Shown here in pieces: positions 1 to 5,246 of a DNA stretch of 5,246 nt. Origin of the DNA: Dehalococcoidales bacterium (lineage in GTDB: Bacteria; Chloroflexota; Dehalococcoidia; Dehalococcoidales; UBA5760); contig JAQTTS010000169.1 of the NCBI GenBank assembly GCA_028710655.1, forward strand, positions 1 to 5,246, given 5' to 3'. Numbering within the stretch: position 1 is the stretch's first letter; each line of letters begins with the position of its first letter. The position numbers and the translations under genes are program-made. The notes under the pieces are model-generated. The model was not told where the DNA came from. It did no database searches and saw only the letters and a list, made by a program, of their open reading frames with translations.

Positions 1-186
1 GGGGCATTAGATAGTGAAAGCGACGATTGGGAATACCTGTTCAGGTGGAGTGTCCCTTCAGAAGAGCGGGTAATTTTTCCTAAACCGGTTGGTAGTGGTG
101 AGGGGACTCAACCTATGAGGGGGCAGAACGTTAGCATCCGCAAGGCGCGAAAGTCAGTGACACCGAGTATTGTGAAAGCGAGGTAG
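1..186 (+). CDS. C-terminal fragment of an unidentified protein (5' truncated)
   Basis: The first reading frame is open from base 1 to a TAG at 184-186 and gives 61 residues with no start inside the window, so this is the end of a gene beginning upstream. The segment starts acidic (SESDDWEYLF), passes through a Trp/Phe-containing stretch likely to form strands, and ends in a basic, probably disordered tail (SIRKARKSVTPSIVKAR). The next gene's ribosome binding site (GAGGT, 180-184) lies over the last codons, which supports this being a translated end in the same operon. I do not recognise the family. A 317-codon open frame on the minus strand covers part of it, but that frame lacks a binding site and overlaps several better genes. 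Confidence 0.6.
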   Translation, partial: GALDSESDDWEYLFRWSVPSEERVIFPKPVGSGEGTQPMRGQNVSIRKARKSVTPSIVKAR

Positions 187-191
187 GGAAT

Positions 192-734
192 ATGGCAGAG
201 AGAATGGCGTTCGGCAAACCAATATACATGAAGTCCGTGGAAGAAAAAGGGGAGAACCTGTCCCGTGGTGTTTGGAACCTCAGTGAGACCTCGGAAGGGA
301 ACTTGTTCCCATCGGATGGTGACGTGTTCAGCAGCAGCGACTCGGCAGAAAAGGCGAACCGGGAAATCATGGCTACCATGGGCATGAAATTGTTCTATGG
401 CCAGCTTCCCGATGGTAACGTAGTAGAGTTTATACGCAAGGGACGTATCGCCGAGCGCGATATGAAGGCTATCAGGGATATGGGAGTGAAGAGGCTCTGG
501 TGGAGCACCTTCACGGCGAAGACCTGGCTCATCGATAATGTAGAGCAGCGCACAACCAAAGAGATTGATTTGAGTCCGAAGGAAACCACTGCCGAGGCTC
601 TGCGGTGGGGACCGGCCTTCGGCTATCCTCATATGGAAGTGCCGTGGCCGAAGAAGTCTACAAAGAGAAGTGGCACGAAACGGCGAGCATCGGGGCATGA
701 GATGCCGCCGCCCAGAATTATGGGGTCGCGGTAA
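192..734 (+). CDS. Hypothetical phage protein, 180 aa
   Basis: ATG at 192 follows GAGGT (180-184) at 7-base spacing, 5 bases after the upstream stop. An internal Met at residue 5 is a weaker alternative start. The first 60 or so residues are polar and Ser/Glu rich (LSETSEGNLFPSDGD), likely flexible. Residues of about 60-130 look folded: a strand pair around KLFYGQLPDGNVVEFI, a helix (ERDMKAIRDMGV), then an aromatic stretch (RLWWSTFTAKTWLID). The tail from about residue 150 is rich in Lys, Arg, Ser and Pro (KKSTKRSGTKRRASG) and is probably an unstructured nucleic-acid- or protein-contacting extension. No signal peptide or membrane helix is seen. I do not recognise a family and propose no function; the gene call itself is good because of its length and binding site. 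Confidence 0.75.
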   Translation: MAERMAFGKPIYMKSVEEKGENLSRGVWNLSETSEGNLFPSDGDVFSSSDSAEKANREIMATMGMKLFYGQLPDGNVVEFIRKGRIAERDMKAIRDMGVKRLWWSTFTAKTWLIDNVEQRTTKEIDLSPKETTAEALRWGPAFGYPHMEVPWPKKSTKRSGTKRRASGHEMPPPRIMGSR

Positions 735-746
735 GAAGGAGGCACT

Positions 747-911
747 ATGATAGGTGGGAAAAAGTTCAGGACGCTTAGAGAAGCGAAGAAATACAAGGCG
801 GGTTTGTCTGCTATTAACCGGGATGTCAGTGATATTTACAATTTGAAGGGTAAGAAGACCAGAGTGTACCGATACTTTGTTGGTACGCATCTGGAGTGGC
901 TGAATCTTTAG
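747..911 (+). CDS. Small basic protein, 54 aa, unknown function
   Basis: ATG at 747 lies 4 bases after AAGGAGG (736-742) and the frame ends at TAG 909-911. The product has 13 Lys/Arg against 4 Asp/Glu. It begins GGKKFRTLREAKKYKAGL, a short strand plus an amphipathic helix, and ends in a strand and aromatic tail (RVYRYFVGTHLEWLNL). The opening Gly-Lys-Lys-Phe and following Ala/Lys helix recall the FDGKKF miniproteins further along (1791 and 2102), but the rest does not align well, so common origin is only a possibility. No metal site, membrane segment or catalytic motif is visible. The strong net positive charge is compatible with nucleic acid binding, which is inference only. Confidence 0.72.
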   Translation: MIGGKKFRTLREAKKYKAGLSAINRDVSDIYNLKGKKTRVYRYFVGTHLEWLNL

Positions 912-913
912 AG

Positions 914-926
914 GGAGGTGTATACA
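914..926 (+). promoter_or_regulatory. Ribosome binding site deciding the 926 start (repeat copy 1)
   Basis: GGAGGTGTATACA precedes and includes the A of ATG 926, with 7 bases between GGAGG and the start codon. The frame is also open from an upstream ATG at 896, but that one lies inside the previous gene without a comparable site, so 926 is chosen. The same 13 bases recur exactly at 2089-2101. Confidence 0.8.
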
Positions 927-1087
927 TGGTTGATAATAGTTTGAGATGCCCGCATTGCGGGAGCAGTAAACTGATAAAATCCGGGAAGGTCTGGTCCAAA
1001 GGGACGTTATTGCATCGCCGAAAAGTGCAACGCTGGCAATGTAATCTATGCGGACGGACAAGTATTAGGCCCCGTGGAGGTAAATAA
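926..1087 (+). CDS. Stand-alone zinc-ribbon miniprotein, 53 aa (transposase-type ribbon)
   Basis: The protein carries two CxxC knuckles, Cys8/Cys11 (RCPHCGSS) and Cys39/Cys42 (QCNLCGRTS), separated by 27 residues with a basic strand-turn-strand middle (IKSGKVWSKG, HRRKVQRW). This is the layout of a four-cysteine zinc ribbon and resembles the N-terminal zinc-binding segment of several transposase families (CPxCGS...KxGK...YxCxxCGR). No catalytic DDE region follows, so this is a free-standing ribbon rather than a transposase. Such domains usually bind DNA, RNA or protein partners; the target here is unknown. Start 926 is set by the site at 914-918. The C-terminus RGGK is encoded by the next gene's ribosome binding site, and its TAA overlaps that gene's ATG by one base. 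Confidence 0.85.
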   Translation: MVDNSLRCPHCGSSKLIKSGKVWSKGTLLHRRKVQRWQCNLCGRTSIRPRGGK

Positions 1088-1305
1088 TGGCAATAACTAT
1101 GCGTCGCGTTGGGAGTAAAGTAAAACTGACTCCGAAGGCAGCCAAGAACGCCCCTGACCTTACGGATGTGATTGGCACGATTACGTATCGCCCAATACAG
1201 GCGTGGGACAAAGGAGCGAAGAGGCCACATATCCGGTACACAGTAAACTTCGGGAAGTCGTTTGGTTCGTTCTCGATTAGAGCCAACGAACTTCGTAAAG
1301 CGTAA
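1087..1305 (+). CDS. Small basic protein, 72 aa, probable SH3-like barrel
   Basis: ATG 1087 overlaps the previous stop as TAATG, with GGAGG (1076-1080) 6 bases upstream, so the pair is likely translationally coupled. The sequence opens with VGSKVKLTPKAAKNAP, continues with a strand after Gly (DVIGTITYRP), then IRYTVNFGKS and SFSIRANELRKA. Alternating short strands, the VGxKVxLT opening and a closing xxELRxA are typical of small phage SH3-like or KOW-type barrels, in which a 'G(D/S)xVxLT...GTVxxV...YxVxF...xxxxELxxA' outline recurs. The assignment is by outline, not by a diagnostic motif. Such folds bind nucleic acid or protein; no catalytic residues are visible. Confidence 0.75.
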   Translation: MAITMRRVGSKVKLTPKAAKNAPDLTDVIGTITYRPIQAWDKGAKRPHIRYTVNFGKSFGSFSIRANELRKA

Positions 1306-1311
1306 GGAGGT
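1303..1311 (+). promoter_or_regulatory. Stop-overlapping ribosome binding site deciding the 1316 start
   Basis: TAAGGAGGT combines the stop of the preceding gene (TAA 1303-1305) with a near-perfect Shine-Dalgarno, 5 bases from ATG 1316. The frame is also open from an ATG at 1262, but that lies inside the previous gene with no such site. Confidence 0.8.
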
Positions 1312-1315
1312 AAGT

Positions 1316-1528
1316 ATGCCGAAAGCCAGGCATATCATGGATGCGACCAAAGTTATCAATGGCAAGAGATACAAGGGGCTTCAAAGATATGGCTCGCGTC
1401 TTGCGGCTCAGCGGGAAGCGGCCAAGTGGGTAAGAGAACCCGGAGTATCTGCCAAGATTACCGGGCCGGATGATAGGGATGGTTTCTATACCGTCTGGGT
1501 GAGAATGAAGAAGAAGGGGGAGAGGTAG
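1316..1528 (+). CDS. Basic miniprotein, 70 aa, member 1 of a repeated strand-helix-strand-strand family
   Basis: The core runs from residue 13: a strand-turn (VINGKRYKGLQRYG), a helix rich in Ala, Arg and Lys (RLAAQREAAKWVREP), Gly43, a strand (VSAKITG), an acidic turn (PDDRDG) and a closing strand (FYTVWVRMKK). The same order is visible in the proteins starting at 1791 and 2102, where NGKRY is replaced by DGKKF, and more loosely in those at 3306 and 3615. I infer paralogy from this order plus shared positions: the Asn/Asp-Gly-Lys turn, helix alanines, glycine at the helix end and aromatic closing strand. The outline resembles half of a SPOR-like or double-stranded-RNA-binding-like alpha/beta fold, but no known family is established. 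Function is unknown. Confidence 0.8.
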   Translation: MPKARHIMDATKVINGKRYKGLQRYGSRLAAQREAAKWVREPGVSAKITGPDDRDGFYTVWVRMKKKGER

Positions 1529-1630
1529 ATGATTGTACTTCCGCGATATCTTTGGGGTGGATGTGGAGCGAAACAGACAGATAAGCGTACCTATAAAGAT
1601 ATCAGGCACAAGAAAGGCAGGAGGAAGTAG
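1529..1630 (+). CDS. Very small basic peptide, 33 aa
   Basis: ATG 1529 starts immediately after the previous TAG (1526-1528), with a purine-rich GGGGGAGAGG run (1516-1525) as a close binding site. The 33-residue product contains 11 Lys/Arg and 2 Asp. It opens with a hydrophobic segment (MIVLPRYLWGGCG) holding a single Cys and closes with a basic tail (HKKGRRK). The last codons AGG AGG AAG double as the Shine-Dalgarno of the next gene, so part of the tail may be constrained by that signal rather than by protein function. It could be a genuine miniprotein or a short translated leader that couples translation to the next gene. No family is recognised. Confidence 0.55.
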   Translation: MIVLPRYLWGGCGAKQTDKRTYKDIRHKKGRRK

Positions 1631-1635
1631 CGATG
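1620..1635 (+). repeat. Gene-junction repeat, copy 1 (GGAGGAAGTAGCGATG)
   Basis: This junction holds the Shine-Dalgarno, the stop of the upstream gene (TAG 1628-1630), two bases and the ATG of the next gene. The following junction (1777-1793) is the same except for one extra A, so consecutive genes are joined by nearly identical sequence. That suggests tandem duplication or modular gain of minigenes. Confidence 0.7.
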
Positions 1636-1788
1636 GCAAAGTGGTTGATACTAACAGGTGGCGGGGGTGCCGTAAGAGGTCGGTATGAGGGCACCAGAGA
1701 ACAGGCTGTAGAGTATTGCAAGGCACATTTTATGCCGAAGGGCTACAAAATCGTGAAGGACAAAACGAAGAAACTGGGAGGAAAGTAG
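1633..1788 (+). CDS. Small basic protein, 51 aa, unknown function
   Basis: ATG 1633 lies 8 bases after GGAGG (1620-1624) and only 2 bases after the previous stop. Residues 1-9 form a short strand (AKWLILTGG), followed by a Gly-rich turn (GGGGAVRG), a helix (REQAVEYCKAHF), a glycine and a strand (GYKIVKDKT), with a basic end (KKLGGK). This is a strand-helix-strand arrangement with 'EGTREQA..Y' at the helix start, similar in outline to the repeated miniproteins but without the closing aromatic strand, so membership is doubtful. The C-terminal GGK is encoded by the next gene's binding site. An opening strand followed by four glycines is unusual, but it does not match a Walker A loop because no GK[ST] follows. 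Confidence 0.72.
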   Translation: MAKWLILTGGGGAVRGRYEGTREQAVEYCKAHFMPKGYKIVKDKTKKLGGK

Positions 1789-1793
1789 CGATG
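1777..1793 (+). repeat. Gene-junction repeat, copy 2 (GGAGGAAAGTAGCGATG)
   Basis: The order is again GGAGG, stop TAG (1786-1788), CG, ATG. It differs from copy 1 at 1620-1635 by a single additional A after GGAGGA. The spacing from GGAGG to the ATG at 1791 is 9 bases, against 8 in copy 1. The site also decides start 1791 over an in-frame upstream ATG at 1716. Confidence 0.7.
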
Positions 1794-1970
1794 CCAGCAA
1801 CTTATAAGTATTTTGACGGAAAGAAGTTCCACTTTCTCGGTGAGCGCAAGACGAAACGTACTGCGGCGGCTCTGGCAGATAAGTATCGCAGTGAATGGGG
1901 CCGGGGGGCCAGAATTATTCCCGGTCAGATATGGAAGTACGCCGTTTGGGGTGAGAACATTAAACAGTAA
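1791..1970 (+). CDS. Basic miniprotein, 59 aa, member 2 of the repeated family (FDGKKF type)
   Basis: The protein opens with YKYFDGKKFHFL (from residue 5), continues with a Lys/Arg/Ala helix (RKTKRTAAALADKYRSEWG, 19-37), then a strand (ARIIPG) and a short aromatic closing strand (WKYAVWG). The FDGKKF hexapeptide is identical to residues 23-28 of the protein starting at 2102, and the two genes still share much of the DNA over this segment (TTtGACGGaAAGAAGTT against TTcGACGGtAAGAAGTT). This is the clearest pair of paralogs in the window. Compared with the 2102 protein it lacks the N-terminal extension and has a shorter turn before the last strand. The role is unknown; basic charge and small alpha/beta size would suit nucleic acid or partner binding. 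Confidence 0.8.
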   Translation: MPATYKYFDGKKFHFLGERKTKRTAAALADKYRSEWGRGARIIPGQIWKYAVWGENIKQ

Positions 1971-1980
1971 GGCAAATAAA

Positions 1981-2088
1981 ATGAAAAAGTTAGCGTCTCG
2001 TTTACGTGATGCTCGCGCCAAACGGATGGGGCACAAAGAGAATGTTGAAGGTAAGGTGCTCCGGCGAAGTAAGAAACACCCGTGGTAA
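1981..2088 (+). CDS. Very small basic peptide, 35 aa
   Basis: ATG 1981 is 8 bases after TAAGG (1968-1972), which overlaps the previous stop; this is a weaker site than its neighbours have. The frame is open much further upstream, but that part lies out of frame inside the preceding gene and is best ignored. The peptide has 13 Lys/Arg and 3 acidic residues in 35. It starts as a probable amphipathic helix (KKLASRLRDARAKRMG) and ends SKKHPW. Its TAA forms part of the strong TAAGGAGG site for the next gene. It could be a short nucleic-acid-binding helix or a coupling leader. I recognise no family. Confidence 0.55.
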   Translation: MKKLASRLRDARAKRMGHKENVEGKVLRRSKKHPW

Positions 2089-2101
2089 GGAGGTGTATAC
2101 A
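2089..2101 (+). promoter_or_regulatory. Ribosome binding site for the GTG start at 2102 (repeat copy 2)
   Basis: GGAGGTGTATACA is an exact 13-base copy of 914-926. Here it is followed by GTG, whereas in copy 1 the last A begins ATG. The site begins directly after TAA 2086-2088 and gives 8 bases from GGAGG to the start. It selects the GTG at 2102 over an in-frame ATG at 2006 inside the previous gene. Confidence 0.75.
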
Positions 2102-2329
2102 GTGTCTACAGCAGTTACAAGATATGGTTATAGCCGGGGGCTTCCCGGTGGCAGAATTGACAAAAGGTTCGACGGTAAGAAGTTTCTACTCCAATTTCAG
2201 AGGGGCAGCAAGGTCGAGGCGAATGCTGAGGCCCGCCATCTGAGAGAAATAGGGTATTTCGTCAGGGTGGTAAAAATGCCCTACAATAAGGAATATCCAT
2301 ACTGGATATTTATCAGGGCGAAGCGCTAG
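2102..2329 (+). CDS. Basic miniprotein, 75 aa, member 3 of the repeated family (FDGKKF type, GTG start)
   Basis: GTG 2102 is chosen because AAGGAGGT (2087-2094) precedes it at good distance. After a 22-residue Gly/Arg-rich lead (YGYSRGLPGGRIDKR) the core reads FDGKKFLLQFQ (23-33), a helix (KVEANAEARHLREIG, 37-51), a strand (YFVRVVKMP), a Tyr/Asn turn and a closing strand (YPYWIFIRAKR). This is the most complete member of the family and fits a strand-helix-strand-strand fold; the 'EARHLREIGYFVRVVK' segment resembles the helix-plus-strand half of SPOR-type or similar small alpha/beta domains. That likeness is structural guesswork. No signal peptide is present, so peptidoglycan binding as in true SPOR proteins is unlikely. 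A perfect inverted repeat sits in its 3' end. Confidence 0.82.
   Translation: MSTAVTRYGYSRGLPGGRIDKRFDGKKFLLQFQRGSKVEANAEARHLREIGYFVRVVKMPYNKEYPYWIFIRAKR
2292..2310. repeat. Perfect 8-3-8 inverted repeat inside a gene end
   Basis: AATATCCA (2292-2299) and TGGATATT (2303-2310) are exact reverse complements around the three bases TAC. The stem would be AT-rich and ends 17 bases before the TAG stop. It encodes part of the closing strand (residues 64-70). It may be a protein-binding palindrome, an mRNA hairpin near the next gene's start, or chance. No U-tract follows, so it does not look like an intrinsic terminator. Confidence 0.6.
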
Positions 2330-2334
2330 GAGGT
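2327..2334 (+). promoter_or_regulatory. Ribosome binding site for the GTG start at 2343
   Basis: TAGGAGGT fuses the stop of the 2102 gene (TAG 2327-2329) with a strong Shine-Dalgarno. GGAGG (2329-2333) ends 9 bases before GTG 2343. This site is the main support for the small peptide gene that follows. Confidence 0.7.
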
Positions 2335-2342
2335 AGCTGAAG

Positions 2343-2471
2343 GTGAAACAAGACTATGAGAAGCCGAAGGTTGAAAAAGTCAGGGAGATGAATTTCCCTG
2401 TTGAAATCTTGAATAAGGATGGTAAGGTTGTTGTCTGCAAGCAGTGCTCCAATTGCCACAGTTGCCGATAA
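2343..2471 (+). CDS. 42-aa peptide with C-terminal CxxCxxCxxC
   Basis: GTG 2343 follows GGAGG (2329-2333) by 9 bases and the frame closes at TAA 2469-2471. The first half is charged (DYEKPKVEKVREM), followed by a hydrophobic patch (NFPVEIL), a Lys-Asp-Gly turn, a short strand (KVVV), and then Cys32, Cys35, Cys38 and Cys41 at even spacing, closing with Arg. Four cysteines within ten residues are striking in an otherwise cysteine-poor window. Two readings are possible: a metal-binding tail (zinc, or an iron-sulfur site like CxxCxxC-type ferredoxin motifs), or a ribosomally made precursor peptide whose KPKVE/FPVEIL half would be a leader and the Cys-rich end a core. No maturation enzyme or exporter is in the window, so the second remains speculation. 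The long shadow frame 2419-2484 is not used. Confidence 0.68.
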   Translation: MKQDYEKPKVEKVREMNFPVEILNKDGKVVVCKQCSNCHSCR

Positions 2472-2484
2472 GCCCGTTAGGGTT

Positions 2485-3096
2485 ATGCCGCGAAGGGTTT
2501 GGCCGGAGACCATCTTCCGCTATGGGAAGTGGGTTAAAATCCATAGCTGGACTACTGAGGAAGATGAGATACTCAGGCGGGAATATACCTTTACCTTAAA
2601 ATCGCTTGATGTCTTAGCCCTTAAACTGGGGGTGACAAACAATGCGGTCAGACAGAGGCTGACCAGACTGGGTCTGTTGAAACTCAATATCAGAAAGTGG
2701 ACCCCGGAAGAGGAAGAATATCTGCGGGAGAACTATACTCAGTTGTCAACGAGGACATTAGCCGTGAAGTTGCATATGTCTCGGAATGCGGTAGTGCGCA
2801 AGGCGCATCGGCTGCATGTGACACAAAGGGTTCGAGACGGCTGGTTCACGCTGAGTGAGGTATCAAAGATTCTAGGTGTAGATGCCGGATGGGTGACGAG
2901 AAGGATACACAACGGGCACCATCTTGAAATGGCACCTCATTCGGAGGATAAGGTCCCCAAGCAGGGGAGTTACGCTGCTTGGCATATATCGGAAGAAGCG
3001 CTGTGCGACTTTATTAGACGATATCCCGAAGAGTTGTCCGGTCATAACGTTGATTTCGTAATGTTGGTAGACATACTGGCCGGAATTAAGAATTAA
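2485..3096 (+). CDS. Putative DNA-binding regulator: two Myb/SANT-like repeats plus MerR/excisionase-like domain
   Basis: Three helical DNA-binding units can be read in its 203 residues. Unit 1 (about 22-64) starts WTTEEDEIL and ends in GVTNNAVRQRLTRLG; unit 2 (72-112) starts WTPEEEEYL and ends in HMSRNAVVRKAHRLH. Both follow the 'WTxEE..LR..Y......lA..LhxSxxAVxxxAxRLg' pattern of prokaryotic Myb/SANT-like repeats, with the last helix as probable recognition helix. Unit 3 (119-203) begins FTLSEVSKILGVDAGWVTRRIHNG, as in MerR/excisionase winged helices, continues to a wing strand (AAWHIS), and closes with EEALCDFIRRYPEEL...VDFVMLVDILAG, a tail seen in phage helix-turn-helix proteins. The likely role is site-specific DNA binding or transcription control. 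ATG 2485 was chosen because the earlier in-frame ATG (2419) overlaps the preceding gene; its own site (AGGG, 2479-2482) is weak and close, so translation may depend on coupling. Confidence 0.82.
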   Translation: MPRRVWPETIFRYGKWVKIHSWTTEEDEILRREYTFTLKSLDVLALKLGVTNNAVRQRLTRLGLLKLNIRKWTPEEEEYLRENYTQLSTRTLAVKLHMSRNAVVRKAHRLHVTQRVRDGWFTLSEVSKILGVDAGWVTRRIHNGHHLEMAPHSEDKVPKQGSYAAWHISEEALCDFIRRYPEELSGHNVDFVMLVDILAGIKN

Positions 3097-3110
3097 GTGG
3101 AGGAACGATT

Positions 3111-3296
3111 ATGGCGTGGAGCATAAGTTGGTCAGAACCACACAAGAAGAAACGGCAGGTTACCGTTGTCTGGAATGAGCAGGATATAAAGAGGGTCAAG
3201 CACAACCTCAAAGGGGTCTTTAACGCTACTGATATAAGGGTTACCAAACTGAAGGGAAGCTACGTTAACCCACGGGAGATGGGCATCAGACAGTAG
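3111..3296 (+). CDS. Small basic protein, 61 aa, unknown function
   Basis: ATG 3111 has GGAGG (3099-3103) 7 bases upstream and starts 14 bases after the regulator's stop. The sequence suggests a strand (KRQVTVVWNE), a helix (QDIKRVKHNLKG), and a second strand (ATDIRVTKLKG), with a polar Arg/Gln tail (NPREMGIRQ). It is basic and has no cysteine, membrane segment or enzyme motif. The strand-helix-strand arrangement is similar in size to the miniprotein family, but the FDGKKF turn and the aromatic final strand are missing, so I keep it separate. No family is recognised. TAG 3294-3296 runs into the next gene's binding site. Confidence 0.75.
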   Translation: MAWSISWSEPHKKKRQVTVVWNEQDIKRVKHNLKGVFNATDIRVTKLKGSYVNPREMGIRQ

Positions 3297-3305
3297 GAGG
3301 CACAC

Positions 3306-3602
3306 ATGCCAAGAACACGAACAAAATTAGTCAAAATGAGGGCCACAGATGATACCGAGATTGATGTCAGAGTTCCCACGAGCATATCTTCTCCGCCGAA
3401 GAAGGACCTTGCGGTAGCGGAGAGCATGTTCGACAAAGAGAACTGGAAGTATCCGACTAAGACGAAGACCTTCAAGACGGAAAGCCGGGCCAGGGCCATT
3501 GGCAGAGCGCTATCCTTCTATCTCGGCGGTTATGAAATTGTACAAACGCCTAGAGGGTGGCAGGTCGGGTCAAAGGGATACTACCACTATATCGGAGCAT
3601 AA
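3306..3602 (+). CDS. Hypothetical protein, 98 aa, with a C-terminal miniprotein-like half
   Basis: ATG 3306 lies 5 bases after GGAGG (3296-3300), which overlaps the previous stop. The first half (to about residue 45) is polar: a basic start (PRTRTKLVKMR), an acidic-hydrophobic strand (DTEIDVRVP), a Ser/Pro linker and a helix (DLAVAESMF). The second half reads WKYPTKTKTF, a helix (SRARAIGRALSFYLGG), a strand (YEIVQTP) and a closing strand region (GWQVGSKGYYHYIGA). That half has the same strand-helix-Gly-strand-strand order as the 2102 protein, with a distinctive aromatic end GYYHYIGA. I infer a distant relationship and possibly a fused N-terminal extension. Function is unknown. Confidence 0.8.
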   Translation: MPRTRTKLVKMRATDDTEIDVRVPTSISSPPKKDLAVAESMFDKENWKYPTKTKTFKTESRARAIGRALSFYLGGYEIVQTPRGWQVGSKGYYHYIGA

Positions 3603-3614
3603 GGAGGGCTTGTT

Positions 3615-3764
3615 ATGTTACCAGCACCGATTGCGCGGGCGATGACTAAAGAGGAAGCCGAGGATAAGGCTCGGCGGTACATAAAACCCGGCCACCGTGT
3701 GGTTAAAAAGCAGCATGGCACCTATCAGGGGAAGGAATACAATTACGTCGTGTACGTGAAATAA
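3615..3764 (+). CDS. Small basic protein, 49 aa, possible distant member of the miniprotein family
   Basis: ATG 3615 is 7 bases after GGAGG (3603-3607), part of TAAGGAGG built on the previous stop. It is too short for common gene-length cut-offs and easily missed. A short hydrophobic start (LPAPIARAM) leads into a helix (TKEEAEDKARRYIK), Pro-Gly, a strand (HRVVKKQ), a turn (GTYQGKE) and a closing strand (YNYVVYVK). The helix, Gly, strand and aromatic closing strand match the second part of the 1316 and 2102 proteins, while the opening FDGKKF strand is absent. It is either a shortened paralog or an independent small alpha/beta protein. Confidence 0.75.
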   Translation: MLPAPIARAMTKEEAEDKARRYIKPGHRVVKKQHGTYQGKEYNYVVYVK

Positions 3765-3781
3765 CGGAGAGGTAACGTCCA

Positions 3782-3997
3782 ATGTCATGGAAGCATAAGA
3801 TAGTCACCAAACCCATAGCCAAACTGGAGGTTGGGGAGATGACTTGGTGTAAGCACTCCGGCAGGTATCGCGGGGTGAGCATTGGCAGAGATAAGGACGG
3901 CTATTATGTGTGTACACATCGGGCCAGGTCAAGGAGCTATCGTAGCCCGCTGTCTATCCCTTTGAAGGAGCTTGCGTGGATAAAGAGTACGGGGTAG
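3782..3997 (+). CDS. Conserved-looking phage miniprotein, 71 aa, THRARS motif
   Basis: ATG 3782 follows GGAGAGG (3766-3772). The protein looks mostly beta: IVTKPIAKLEVGEMTWCKH, a turn, YRGVSIGRDKDGYYVCTH, then the basic segment RARSRSYRSP, a short SIPLKEL stretch and a hydrophobic end AWIKSTG. The THRARS.SY.SP..IP...I..I.STG outline is one I associate with uncharacterised phage and prokaryotic small proteins, from memory and without a check. The two Cys residues (23 and 44) are too few for a zinc ribbon. The density of Arg, Ser and Tyr in residues 46-56 could contact nucleic acid. No catalytic role is apparent. Confidence 0.78.
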   Translation: MSWKHKIVTKPIAKLEVGEMTWCKHSGRYRGVSIGRDKDGYYVCTHRARSRSYRSPLSIPLKELAWIKSTG

Positions 3998-4007
3998 AAC
4001 GGAGTAG

Positions 4008-4073
4008 ATAACTGCGGACGAGAACCGCATCTTCAATAAAGGGAAGAAAAAGGGTAAAATTAAAAGGAGGTAA
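4008..4073 (+). CDS. Possible 21-codon minigene or gene remnant without a standard start
   Basis: In the 83-base gap between two genes, one frame runs from ATA 4008 to TAA 4071-4073. It gives a Lys/Arg-rich peptide ending KGKKKGKIKRR, the same kind of tail, encoded over a Shine-Dalgarno, as other minigenes here. GGAG (4001-4004) precedes ATA by only 3 bases, yet there is no ATG, GTG or TTG in the frame. It may be a degraded minigene, a start lost to mutation or sequencing error, rare ATA initiation, or chance. Confidence 0.2.
   Translation: MTADENRIFNKGKKKGKIKRR
4013..4029 (+). other. Weak hairpin in the largest gap between genes
   Basis: TGCGG (4013-4017) and CCGCA (4025-4029) can pair around a 7-base loop. 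The five-pair stem is short, and the bases after it (TCTTCAATAAAGG) hold no run of T, so it is a poor terminator candidate. It might be an mRNA structure or chance. Confidence 0.25.
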
Positions 4074-4080
4074 GGGGAAC

Positions 4081-4446
4081 ATGCCGAAGCTAAGGGTAAC
4101 ACGGAGAGGTCATTACAGGGATGCGCACATGCGGCCCGGTGGGGTTGTGGTGCCGCGCCGGAAAATCAAGAAGGTCACATTCCTTATTAAGGACCGTGGC
4201 GCTCCGGGCCGGACTCCGAAGGAGGATAGGTTCTTCCATCCCAAGGTACATACCGGGTGGGAAGCTGACATGCCCGCCAAGAAGAGGCGAGGTCTGATGC
4301 TGAAGGCACATGGCGGCAATGCGCTGTCCACCGCGAGAGCTTTGCAGGCGCTGCATAACGTTTCTTTTAGAACCGCCCCGGCTGCTGCGGCCAAAGCTCA
4401 AGCAGATGCGAAGTTCTTTTATCGGAAGCATAAGGCTGAGAAATAG
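4081..4446 (+). CDS. Basic hypothetical phage protein, 121 aa
   Basis: ATG 4081 has AAGGAGGT (4064-4071) 9 bases upstream. The N-terminus is basic and extended (MPKLRVTRRGHYRDAHMRPGG), followed by a strand (KKVTFLIKDRG), a Gly/Pro turn (APGRTPKED), and then KVHTGWEADMPAKKRRGLMLKAHGG. From about residue 80 it is helical and Ala rich (STARALQALHNV, AAAAKAQADAKFFYRKHK). The profile, a basic lead plus a conserved-looking central Trp/Lys block and an Ala/Lys helix ending in aromatic residues, resembles uncharacterised small proteins next to phage structural genes. Its place immediately before a long presumed virion protein fits a morphogenesis-linked role, but nothing in the sequence proves it. 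No metal site or membrane segment is visible. Confidence 0.82.
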   Translation: MPKLRVTRRGHYRDAHMRPGGVVVPRRKIKKVTFLIKDRGAPGRTPKEDRFFHPKVHTGWEADMPAKKRRGLMLKAHGGNALSTARALQALHNVSFRTAPAAAAKAQADAKFFYRKHKAEK

Positions 4447-4458
4447 CCGAGGAGATTT

Positions 4459-5246
4459 ATGCCCCCATCTGTATTTGGGCAGACGCTCGTAACCGGGCAA
4501 CCGGCTACCACGGAGCCGAGCGGACATCCGACTGTGGCGGGGACCCCGCCCATTGTCCCTGCTGATGCGCCTCTACCAGTAGCAGGCGGGGCAATAGCCT
4601 CACGCCCTTCTGTGGCTCGCTCAACTGTGGATACTGGCGAGTTTCTGAGACAGTTGGCTGCTATCGACGCAGAGATAGACCCCGTTTGGTTATCTGGACG
4701 AGGCATGAATCCCTCAAGCCAGGAGTCCGCTGCGCGTGATAAGAAGCTGGGGGAGTTGTATGCCAAACGTGATGCGATAATGGCAAGCAACCCGGAACTT
4801 GCGGCGAAAGTACGGAAGGCGGAAGATAACTATCGTCTCGTTAAGTTTGGTGGGCTACAGGGGGATGTATTTCCTCGCCCATTAGGCGGTATTCCCGCAG
4901 GCGGTCTTACACTGGAGCAGGTAGATGAATATTCCCGCATGACCATAGAGGACATTAAGCGGCTTAACCCCGCTGCTGTACCAAGCCGCCCGGCGACACA
5001 AGAAGAGTTAACAGGCCAGGCAGGTAAGGCCCCTCTTAGCGAGGCTGACTGGAAGGCAGCAGTTAAAGAAAAGGACCTAACTACGGAGCAGCGGGGTTTG
5101 CTAGGCACATCATACCAAGATTATTTGTCAATGCCATCCGAGGCACAGCAAAGGGGTGCGATATCTCCGGCTAGTCTGTCTTACAAGCGTCTGCAAGATG
5201 CGGGGGTTATTGACGCGAAAGGCAATCTAGATGCATTGAAAGCGCA
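4459..5246 (+). CDS. N-terminal part of a long hypothetical, probable phage structural or morphogenesis protein (3' truncated)
   Basis: ATG 4459 follows GAGGAG (4449-4454) at short spacing and the frame stays open for 262 codons to the window edge without a stop. Residues 1-54 are rich in Pro, Ala, Thr and Gly (QPATTEPSGHPTVAGTPP) and probably disordered. Residues of about 59-125 are helical and charged (EFLRQLAAIDAEID, KKLGELYAKRDAIM, ELAAKVRKAEDNYR), likely a coiled coil. A Gly/Pro segment follows (GGLQGDVFPRPLGGIPAGG), and then an alternation of acidic helices (TLEQVDEYSRMTIEDIKRL, SEADWKAAVKEKDLT) and polar linkers. No enzymatic motif has appeared yet. Large disordered/helical proteins after small genes are common among phage virion, scaffold or injected proteins, so that role is inferred from context only. 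Composition is less basic than the minigenes before it. Confidence 0.8.
   Translation, partial: MPPSVFGQTLVTGQPATTEPSGHPTVAGTPPIVPADAPLPVAGGAIASRPSVARSTVDTGEFLRQLAAIDAEIDPVWLSGRGMNPSSQESAARDKKLGELYAKRDAIMASNPELAAKVRKAEDNYRLVKFGGLQGDVFPRPLGGIPAGGLTLEQVDEYSRMTIEDIKRLNPAAVPSRPATQEELTGQAGKAPLSEADWKAAVKEKDLTTEQRGLLGTSYQDYLSMPSEAQQRGAISPASLSYKRLQDAGVIDAKGNLDALKA

Follow-up and report, generated by a model that had tools for sequence, protein, structure and literature searches.

A diverged family of small proteins encoded in one operon of a likely phage sequence

The DNA analyzed here is a 5246-bp stretch (the window) of a Dehalococcoidales bacterium assembly (GenBank GCA_028710655.1, contig JAQTTS010000169.1, positions 1 to 5,246), probably the whole contig, in which an earlier note, made from the letters alone, had grouped five genes for small basic proteins into one paralogous family. 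Eighteen genes, every one on the + strand, were picked by eye out of a list of open reading frames (ORFs), with no gene finder; a partial ORF at 1-186 and antisense ORFs, the longest of 317 residues (108-1061, minus strand), were left aside. Intergenic gaps among the first 17 genes range from -1 to 83 nt, and GGAGG occurs within 20 nt upstream of 12 of the 18 chosen starts, including those of all five claimed members, whose ORFs are present as the note had described them. Proteins are named here by the first coordinate of their genes, and 1316, 1791 and 2102 are referred to as the trio.

1316..1528, + strand: family member 1, 70 residues, full length, net charge +11; 12.9 bits with the 1791+2102 profile, reached by 0 of 2000 shuffles
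1791..1970, + strand: family member 2, 59 residues, net charge +8, the modelled copy; 16.4 bits with the 1316+2102 profile, reached by 0 of 2000 shuffles
2102..2329, + strand: family member 3, 75 residues, GTG start, extra N-terminal stretch, net charge +11; 19.1 bits with the 1316+1791 profile, reached by 0 of 2000 shuffles
3615..3764, + strand: shortened member, 49 residues, carrying the helix-Gly-strand-strand part without the N-terminal hairpin; 13.0 bits with the trio profile
3306..3602, + strand: 98-residue protein, claimed as a member from its outline alone (single-sequence model)

When each trio protein was searched with a profile built from the other two, the left-out member ranked first among 1740, 1728 and 1793 scored sequences (the member itself counted), and the best control reached 8.7 bits. 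The real-DNA control consisted of 2183 ORFs from eight loci spanning 200 kb and was a convenience set: loci L001-L003 and L004-L007 came in through helix-turn-helix (HTH) matches, and L008 through a weak match to 1316 (E 4). To control for basic composition, random pairs were drawn from 597 small basic control ORFs, and each of the 300 resulting profiles was searched against a pool of 16 others; none reached 12.9 bits, the best scoring 11.3. Judged by these leave-one-out profiles, 1316, 1791 and 2102 are paralogs. The trio profile also matched 3615, over profile positions 21-60, with a score that none of 2000 shuffles and none of the 2183 control ORFs attained and that lay above all of the random pair profiles. 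As a lone query, 3615 placed 2102 fourth at 5.7 bits, under three controls (best 6.7), which is not significant, so that its support rests on the profile; its pairwise z was 4.2 with 2102, 1.1 with 1316 and 0.7 with 1791. We regard 3615 as a supported member of the family, apparently a shorter copy.

Pairwise local alignment of 153 protein pairs gave z scores of 7.0 for 1791/2102, 4.4 for 1316/2102 and 3.1 for 1316/1791. Since pairs without any claimed link reached 3.8 (1316/3782) and 3.3 (1633/3615), pairwise scores alone prove only the relationship of 1791 to 2102. That the 1316/1791 score is equalled by such pairs, and that 3615 as a lone query fails to separate 2102 from controls, would suit an explanation in which there is no deep family, 1791 and 2102 alone being related and the rest reflecting convergence of small basic alpha/beta proteins. 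This we find very hard to credit, given that the profile scores of 1316 and 3615 beat all shuffles, all control ORFs and every random pair profile. Profile similarity therefore extends past the 1791/2102 pair, to which, were the family illusory, the earlier note had expected it to be confined.

A shared opening turn, (N/D)GK(K/R)(F/Y), was found in all three trio proteins, as had been proposed. The hexapeptide FDGKKF, said to be kept by 1791 and 2102 with near-identical DNA, is encoded at 1812-1829 and 2168-2185, where 15 of 18 bases are identical; the three differences are all synonymous third positions, which indicates that the protein is conserved and argues against a recent DNA copy. Over the whole gene, 1791 and 2102 align better than shuffled sequences (0 of 500 as high), with several gaps. 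Theirs is an old paralogy in which the turn has been kept. Common descent of the trio and 3615, with divergence to about 30% identity, is likewise supported at the sequence level.

The fold of 1791 was modelled with AlphaFold2 from a three-sequence alignment, with a predicted local distance difference test score (pLDDT) of 77.1 and a predicted template modelling score (pTM) of 0.60. The model places strands at residues 5-8 and 11-19, a helix at 22-36 and strands at 40-44 and 50-56. The strand-helix-strand-strand outline that had been suggested is thus contained in it, preceded by one strand more, which makes the predicted order strand-strand-helix-strand-strand. The outline is a common one, and the two best structure-aligner rows for the model were designed mini-proteins, a point in favor of convergence. 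Convergence would account for 3306, the one claimed member that fell away. Its score with the trio profile was -0.8 bits, a value that 1397 of 2000 shuffles attained; with the profile that includes 3615, 1106 of 2000 shuffles were as high, and its pairwise z did not exceed 1.4 with any of the other four proteins. A single-sequence model of 3306 shows strand-helix-strand-strand at 54-89 with low confidence (mean pLDDT 56.6), and this outline of its C-terminal half is the common one.

Two further proteins were considered as possible relatives, together with a direct repeat at gene junctions:

747..911, + strand: 54-residue protein, possible further relative; GGKKF turn close to its start
1633..1788, + strand: 51-residue protein with a start junction like that of 1791, possible truncated relative of 1791
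1610..1638, + strand: gene-junction repeat D1, copy 1 (direct repeat, 72% over 29 nt)
1768..1796, + strand: gene-junction repeat D1, copy 2

Protein 747 scored 6.2 bits with the trio profile, a value reached by 23 of 2000 shuffles, 1 of 2183 control ORFs and 21 of 300 random pair profiles, and the match weakened when 3615 was added (49 of 2000 shuffles); it is a possible extra member and the strongest lead for one. Protein 1633 scored 1.4 bits (427 of 2000 shuffles), or 3.3 bits with 3615 in the profile (109 of 2000), and could be a relative of 1791 in truncated form. Proteins 3782, 1087, 3111 and 4081 were rejected, their trio-profile scores being reached by 102, 419, 1884 and 983 of 2000 shuffles, respectively. 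Repeat D1 covers the stop-to-start junctions ahead of 1633 and 1791, both of whose starts have GGAGG(A)AAGTAGCGATG; among 17 starts these two form the best start-context pair, which was equalled in 15 of 500 column shuffles. The second such pair, reached in 2 of 500, is that of 926 and 2102, which are unrelated genes with the 13-mer GGAGGTGTATACA just ahead of both starts (914-941 and 2089-2116). The resemblance of these junctions weakly suggests that genes may have been copied or swapped there.

The family found little echo in libraries. Neither Pfam (E up to 1), NCBIfam nor PADLOC (E up to 1) gave any match for 1316, 1791, 2102, 3306 or 3615, and Pfam stayed empty with the limit raised to E 10 for the five rows of one alignment (A3). 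PHROGs returned nothing for the five proteins beyond two weak matches of 3615 to families without an assigned function, phrog_1212 (E 0.15) and phrog_38434 (E 0.2). Searches of the PDB gave nothing below E 0.5. A protein search of 5.8 billion sequences, which needs short exact words, was run with 1316, the trio alignment and 3306 as queries, 3615 not being queried. Proteins 1316 and 3306 each found only themselves, and the trio alignment found 2102 and 1316 of the window plus one protein (P0003) that is 93% identical to 1791 and was the sole non-self relative obtained. The identical 1316 protein occurs on two contigs and that of 3306 on three (longest 22,846 bp for both), suggesting at least one further contig of the same lineage; the 2102 protein was found on a single contig, whose length of 5246 bp is the reason for taking the window as probably a complete contig.

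Among the queries run against viral contigs, 2485 alone, the HTH protein described below, gave loci (L001-L003); 1316, 1791, 4081, 4459, 192 and the trio alignment gave none. The profile search that was significant for the trio and 3615 detected no matching ORF in these contigs (best 3.4 bits, E 2.7). No family relative was found in phage records by DNA and tblastn searches (2102, 1316, 4081, 4459, 192 and 1791) or in plasmids, where 2102 was the only query; matches listed there for 2102, 1316 and 1791 had E values of 4-9 and were not accepted as relatives. A thin literature search, limited to titles and the starts of abstracts, returned no paper on such a family, which does not imply its absence from print.

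Three neighboring genes have features worth recording:

2485-3096, + strand: HTH protein; phrog_323 at 8.5e-17, Pfam GcrA at 38.6 bits (cut-off 26.9)
926-1087, + strand: 53-residue zinc-ribbon-like protein with two CxxC motifs; sub-threshold zinc-ribbon matches, best PF12760 (E 0.00027)
4081-4446, + strand: 121-residue very basic protein, net charge +22; sub-threshold DUF5771 match (E 0.091)

Among the 18 predicted genes, 2485 is the sole one with a clear family match. Its protein has GcrA/D5-like matches and, near the C-terminus, a sub-threshold HTH_17 match, and it was the one gene for which phage records gave matches, in 12 of them (E values from 8e-7 to 7e-4). In genome contigs it led to one confirmed locus, a contig of a Wallbacteria metagenome-assembled genome (37% identity over residues 14-103) that shares just the HTH part with the window, has no obvious phage context and looks chromosomal. 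No confirmed relative of 4081 was found in viral contigs or phage records. No tRNA was detected in the window, and the Rfam scan gave no family at the gathering threshold. Because of the tight packing, the mostly small genes on one strand and the HTH protein matching phrog_323, the window is likely phage DNA, from an undescribed phage; we stop at likely because the window proteins that were scanned gave no match to any hallmark phage family.

As to what the family does, certain basic and aromatic residues are kept among its members. In 1791 numbering and in the order 1791/2102/1316, position 12 is K/K/R, position 41 R/R/K, position 53 W/F/W and position 55 E/R/R; the 3615 counterparts of positions 41, 53 and 55 are R, Y and K. 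By strand alternation in the model, K12, R41, W53 and position 55 would lie on the sheet face opposite the helix. An open sheet that displays conserved basic and aromatic residues is seen in many nucleic-acid binders, and it is these residues that lead us to favor, tentatively, a lineage-specific family of small nucleic-acid-binding proteins, comprising three full-length copies and a short one, that arose by duplication and deep divergence. Duplication inside one operon would be the simplest origin of the four copies. In each full copy a single helix would pack against one face of a four-stranded sheet, as the moderate-confidence model of one copy predicts; the open face would bind nucleic acid, and the copies might differ in the sites or partners that they bind within infected cells. 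The proteins are probably cytoplasmic: no hydrophobic stretch suggestive of export or membrane insertion was seen in the five proteins (the highest 19-residue mean hydropathy was 0.46, in 3306), although no signal-peptide predictor was used. The proteins are basic, as the earlier note had stressed, but this does not set them apart: 17 of the 18 predicted proteins are net positive, namely all 17 within 192-4446, only 4459 being negative, and the argument from charge is therefore weak. Expansion of the family under selection is plausible.

The same paralogs might instead be small proteins that inhibit host or defence proteins through protein-protein contacts, diverging as they track different host targets. 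Tiny genes that diverge fast and lie clustered in one operon are in keeping with our general picture of accessory phage genes, and the single non-self relative indicates a family that either evolves fast or is rarely sampled. The lack of any PADLOC match tells against inhibition, as does the fact that no inhibition-specific feature was seen, and we rate this possibility as unlikely, if worth keeping in mind.

The nucleic-acid-binding family that we favor can be set beside several known systems through the 1791 model. Its strand-helix-strand-strand part superposes on the SPOR domain (CwlC, 1x60; RlpA, 6i05) at 1.1 Å over 40 columns or 1.8 Å over 49 residues; the match is not significant. The full SPOR fold, which we take to be Pfam PF05036, continues with a second helix and a final strand, whereas the 1791 model stops after strand 50-56 of its 59 residues, without this second half, and has an extra N-terminal strand instead. 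The copies could conceivably be half-SPOR modules that dimerise via their sheets, rebuild a SPOR or ferredoxin-like unit and possibly bind glycan or each other. We hold this improbable: the model ends just where the missing half of a SPOR domain would come, Pfam gave no match at either threshold, and SPOR domains act outside the cytoplasm, whereas 1791 has no hydrophobic export stretch.

The model also resembles the DNA-binding saddle of LAGLIDADG homing endonucleases (I-DmoI, I-Tsp061I) and WhiA, with Z not significant. In the endonucleases a LAGLIDADG helix carrying a catalytic acid precedes the first strand; 1791 has no such helix, just four residues ahead of that strand, and no Pfam match. 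With the eIF1/SUI1 fold, its best match in the viral library (E 0.053, TMq 0.64, not significant), it has the strand-strand-helix-strand-strand core in common, but the SUI1 fold ends in a helix that 1791 lacks, again with no Pfam match. Similar in size and outline are three small BFVD proteins, A0A2H4P783 (70 residues, Pseudomonas phage nickie), A0A6J5NJQ8 (60 residues, uncultured Caudovirales phage) and A0A088C3R4 (57 residues), which superpose at root mean square deviations of 1.5-1.8 Å over 41-47 columns with 13-29% identity, a likeness below significance (E 0.23-0.8). It is a long shot that a phage lineage turned a single stand-alone strand-strand-helix-strand-strand module, with the outline of a bare LAGLIDADG-half saddle or a half SPOR, into a diverged binding set within one operon, whose members act jointly, either singly or in mixed dimers. 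What is added here is an unnamed small-protein family that has four supported copies within 2.5 kb and for which Pfam, PHROGs, NCBIfam and PADLOC offered no convincing match, and small paralogs in one operon offer a tractable route to how viral binding modules diversify. The gain is modest because phages in general are known to carry such sets of small duplicated genes, and beside these the family is genuine and new, yet ordinary in kind.

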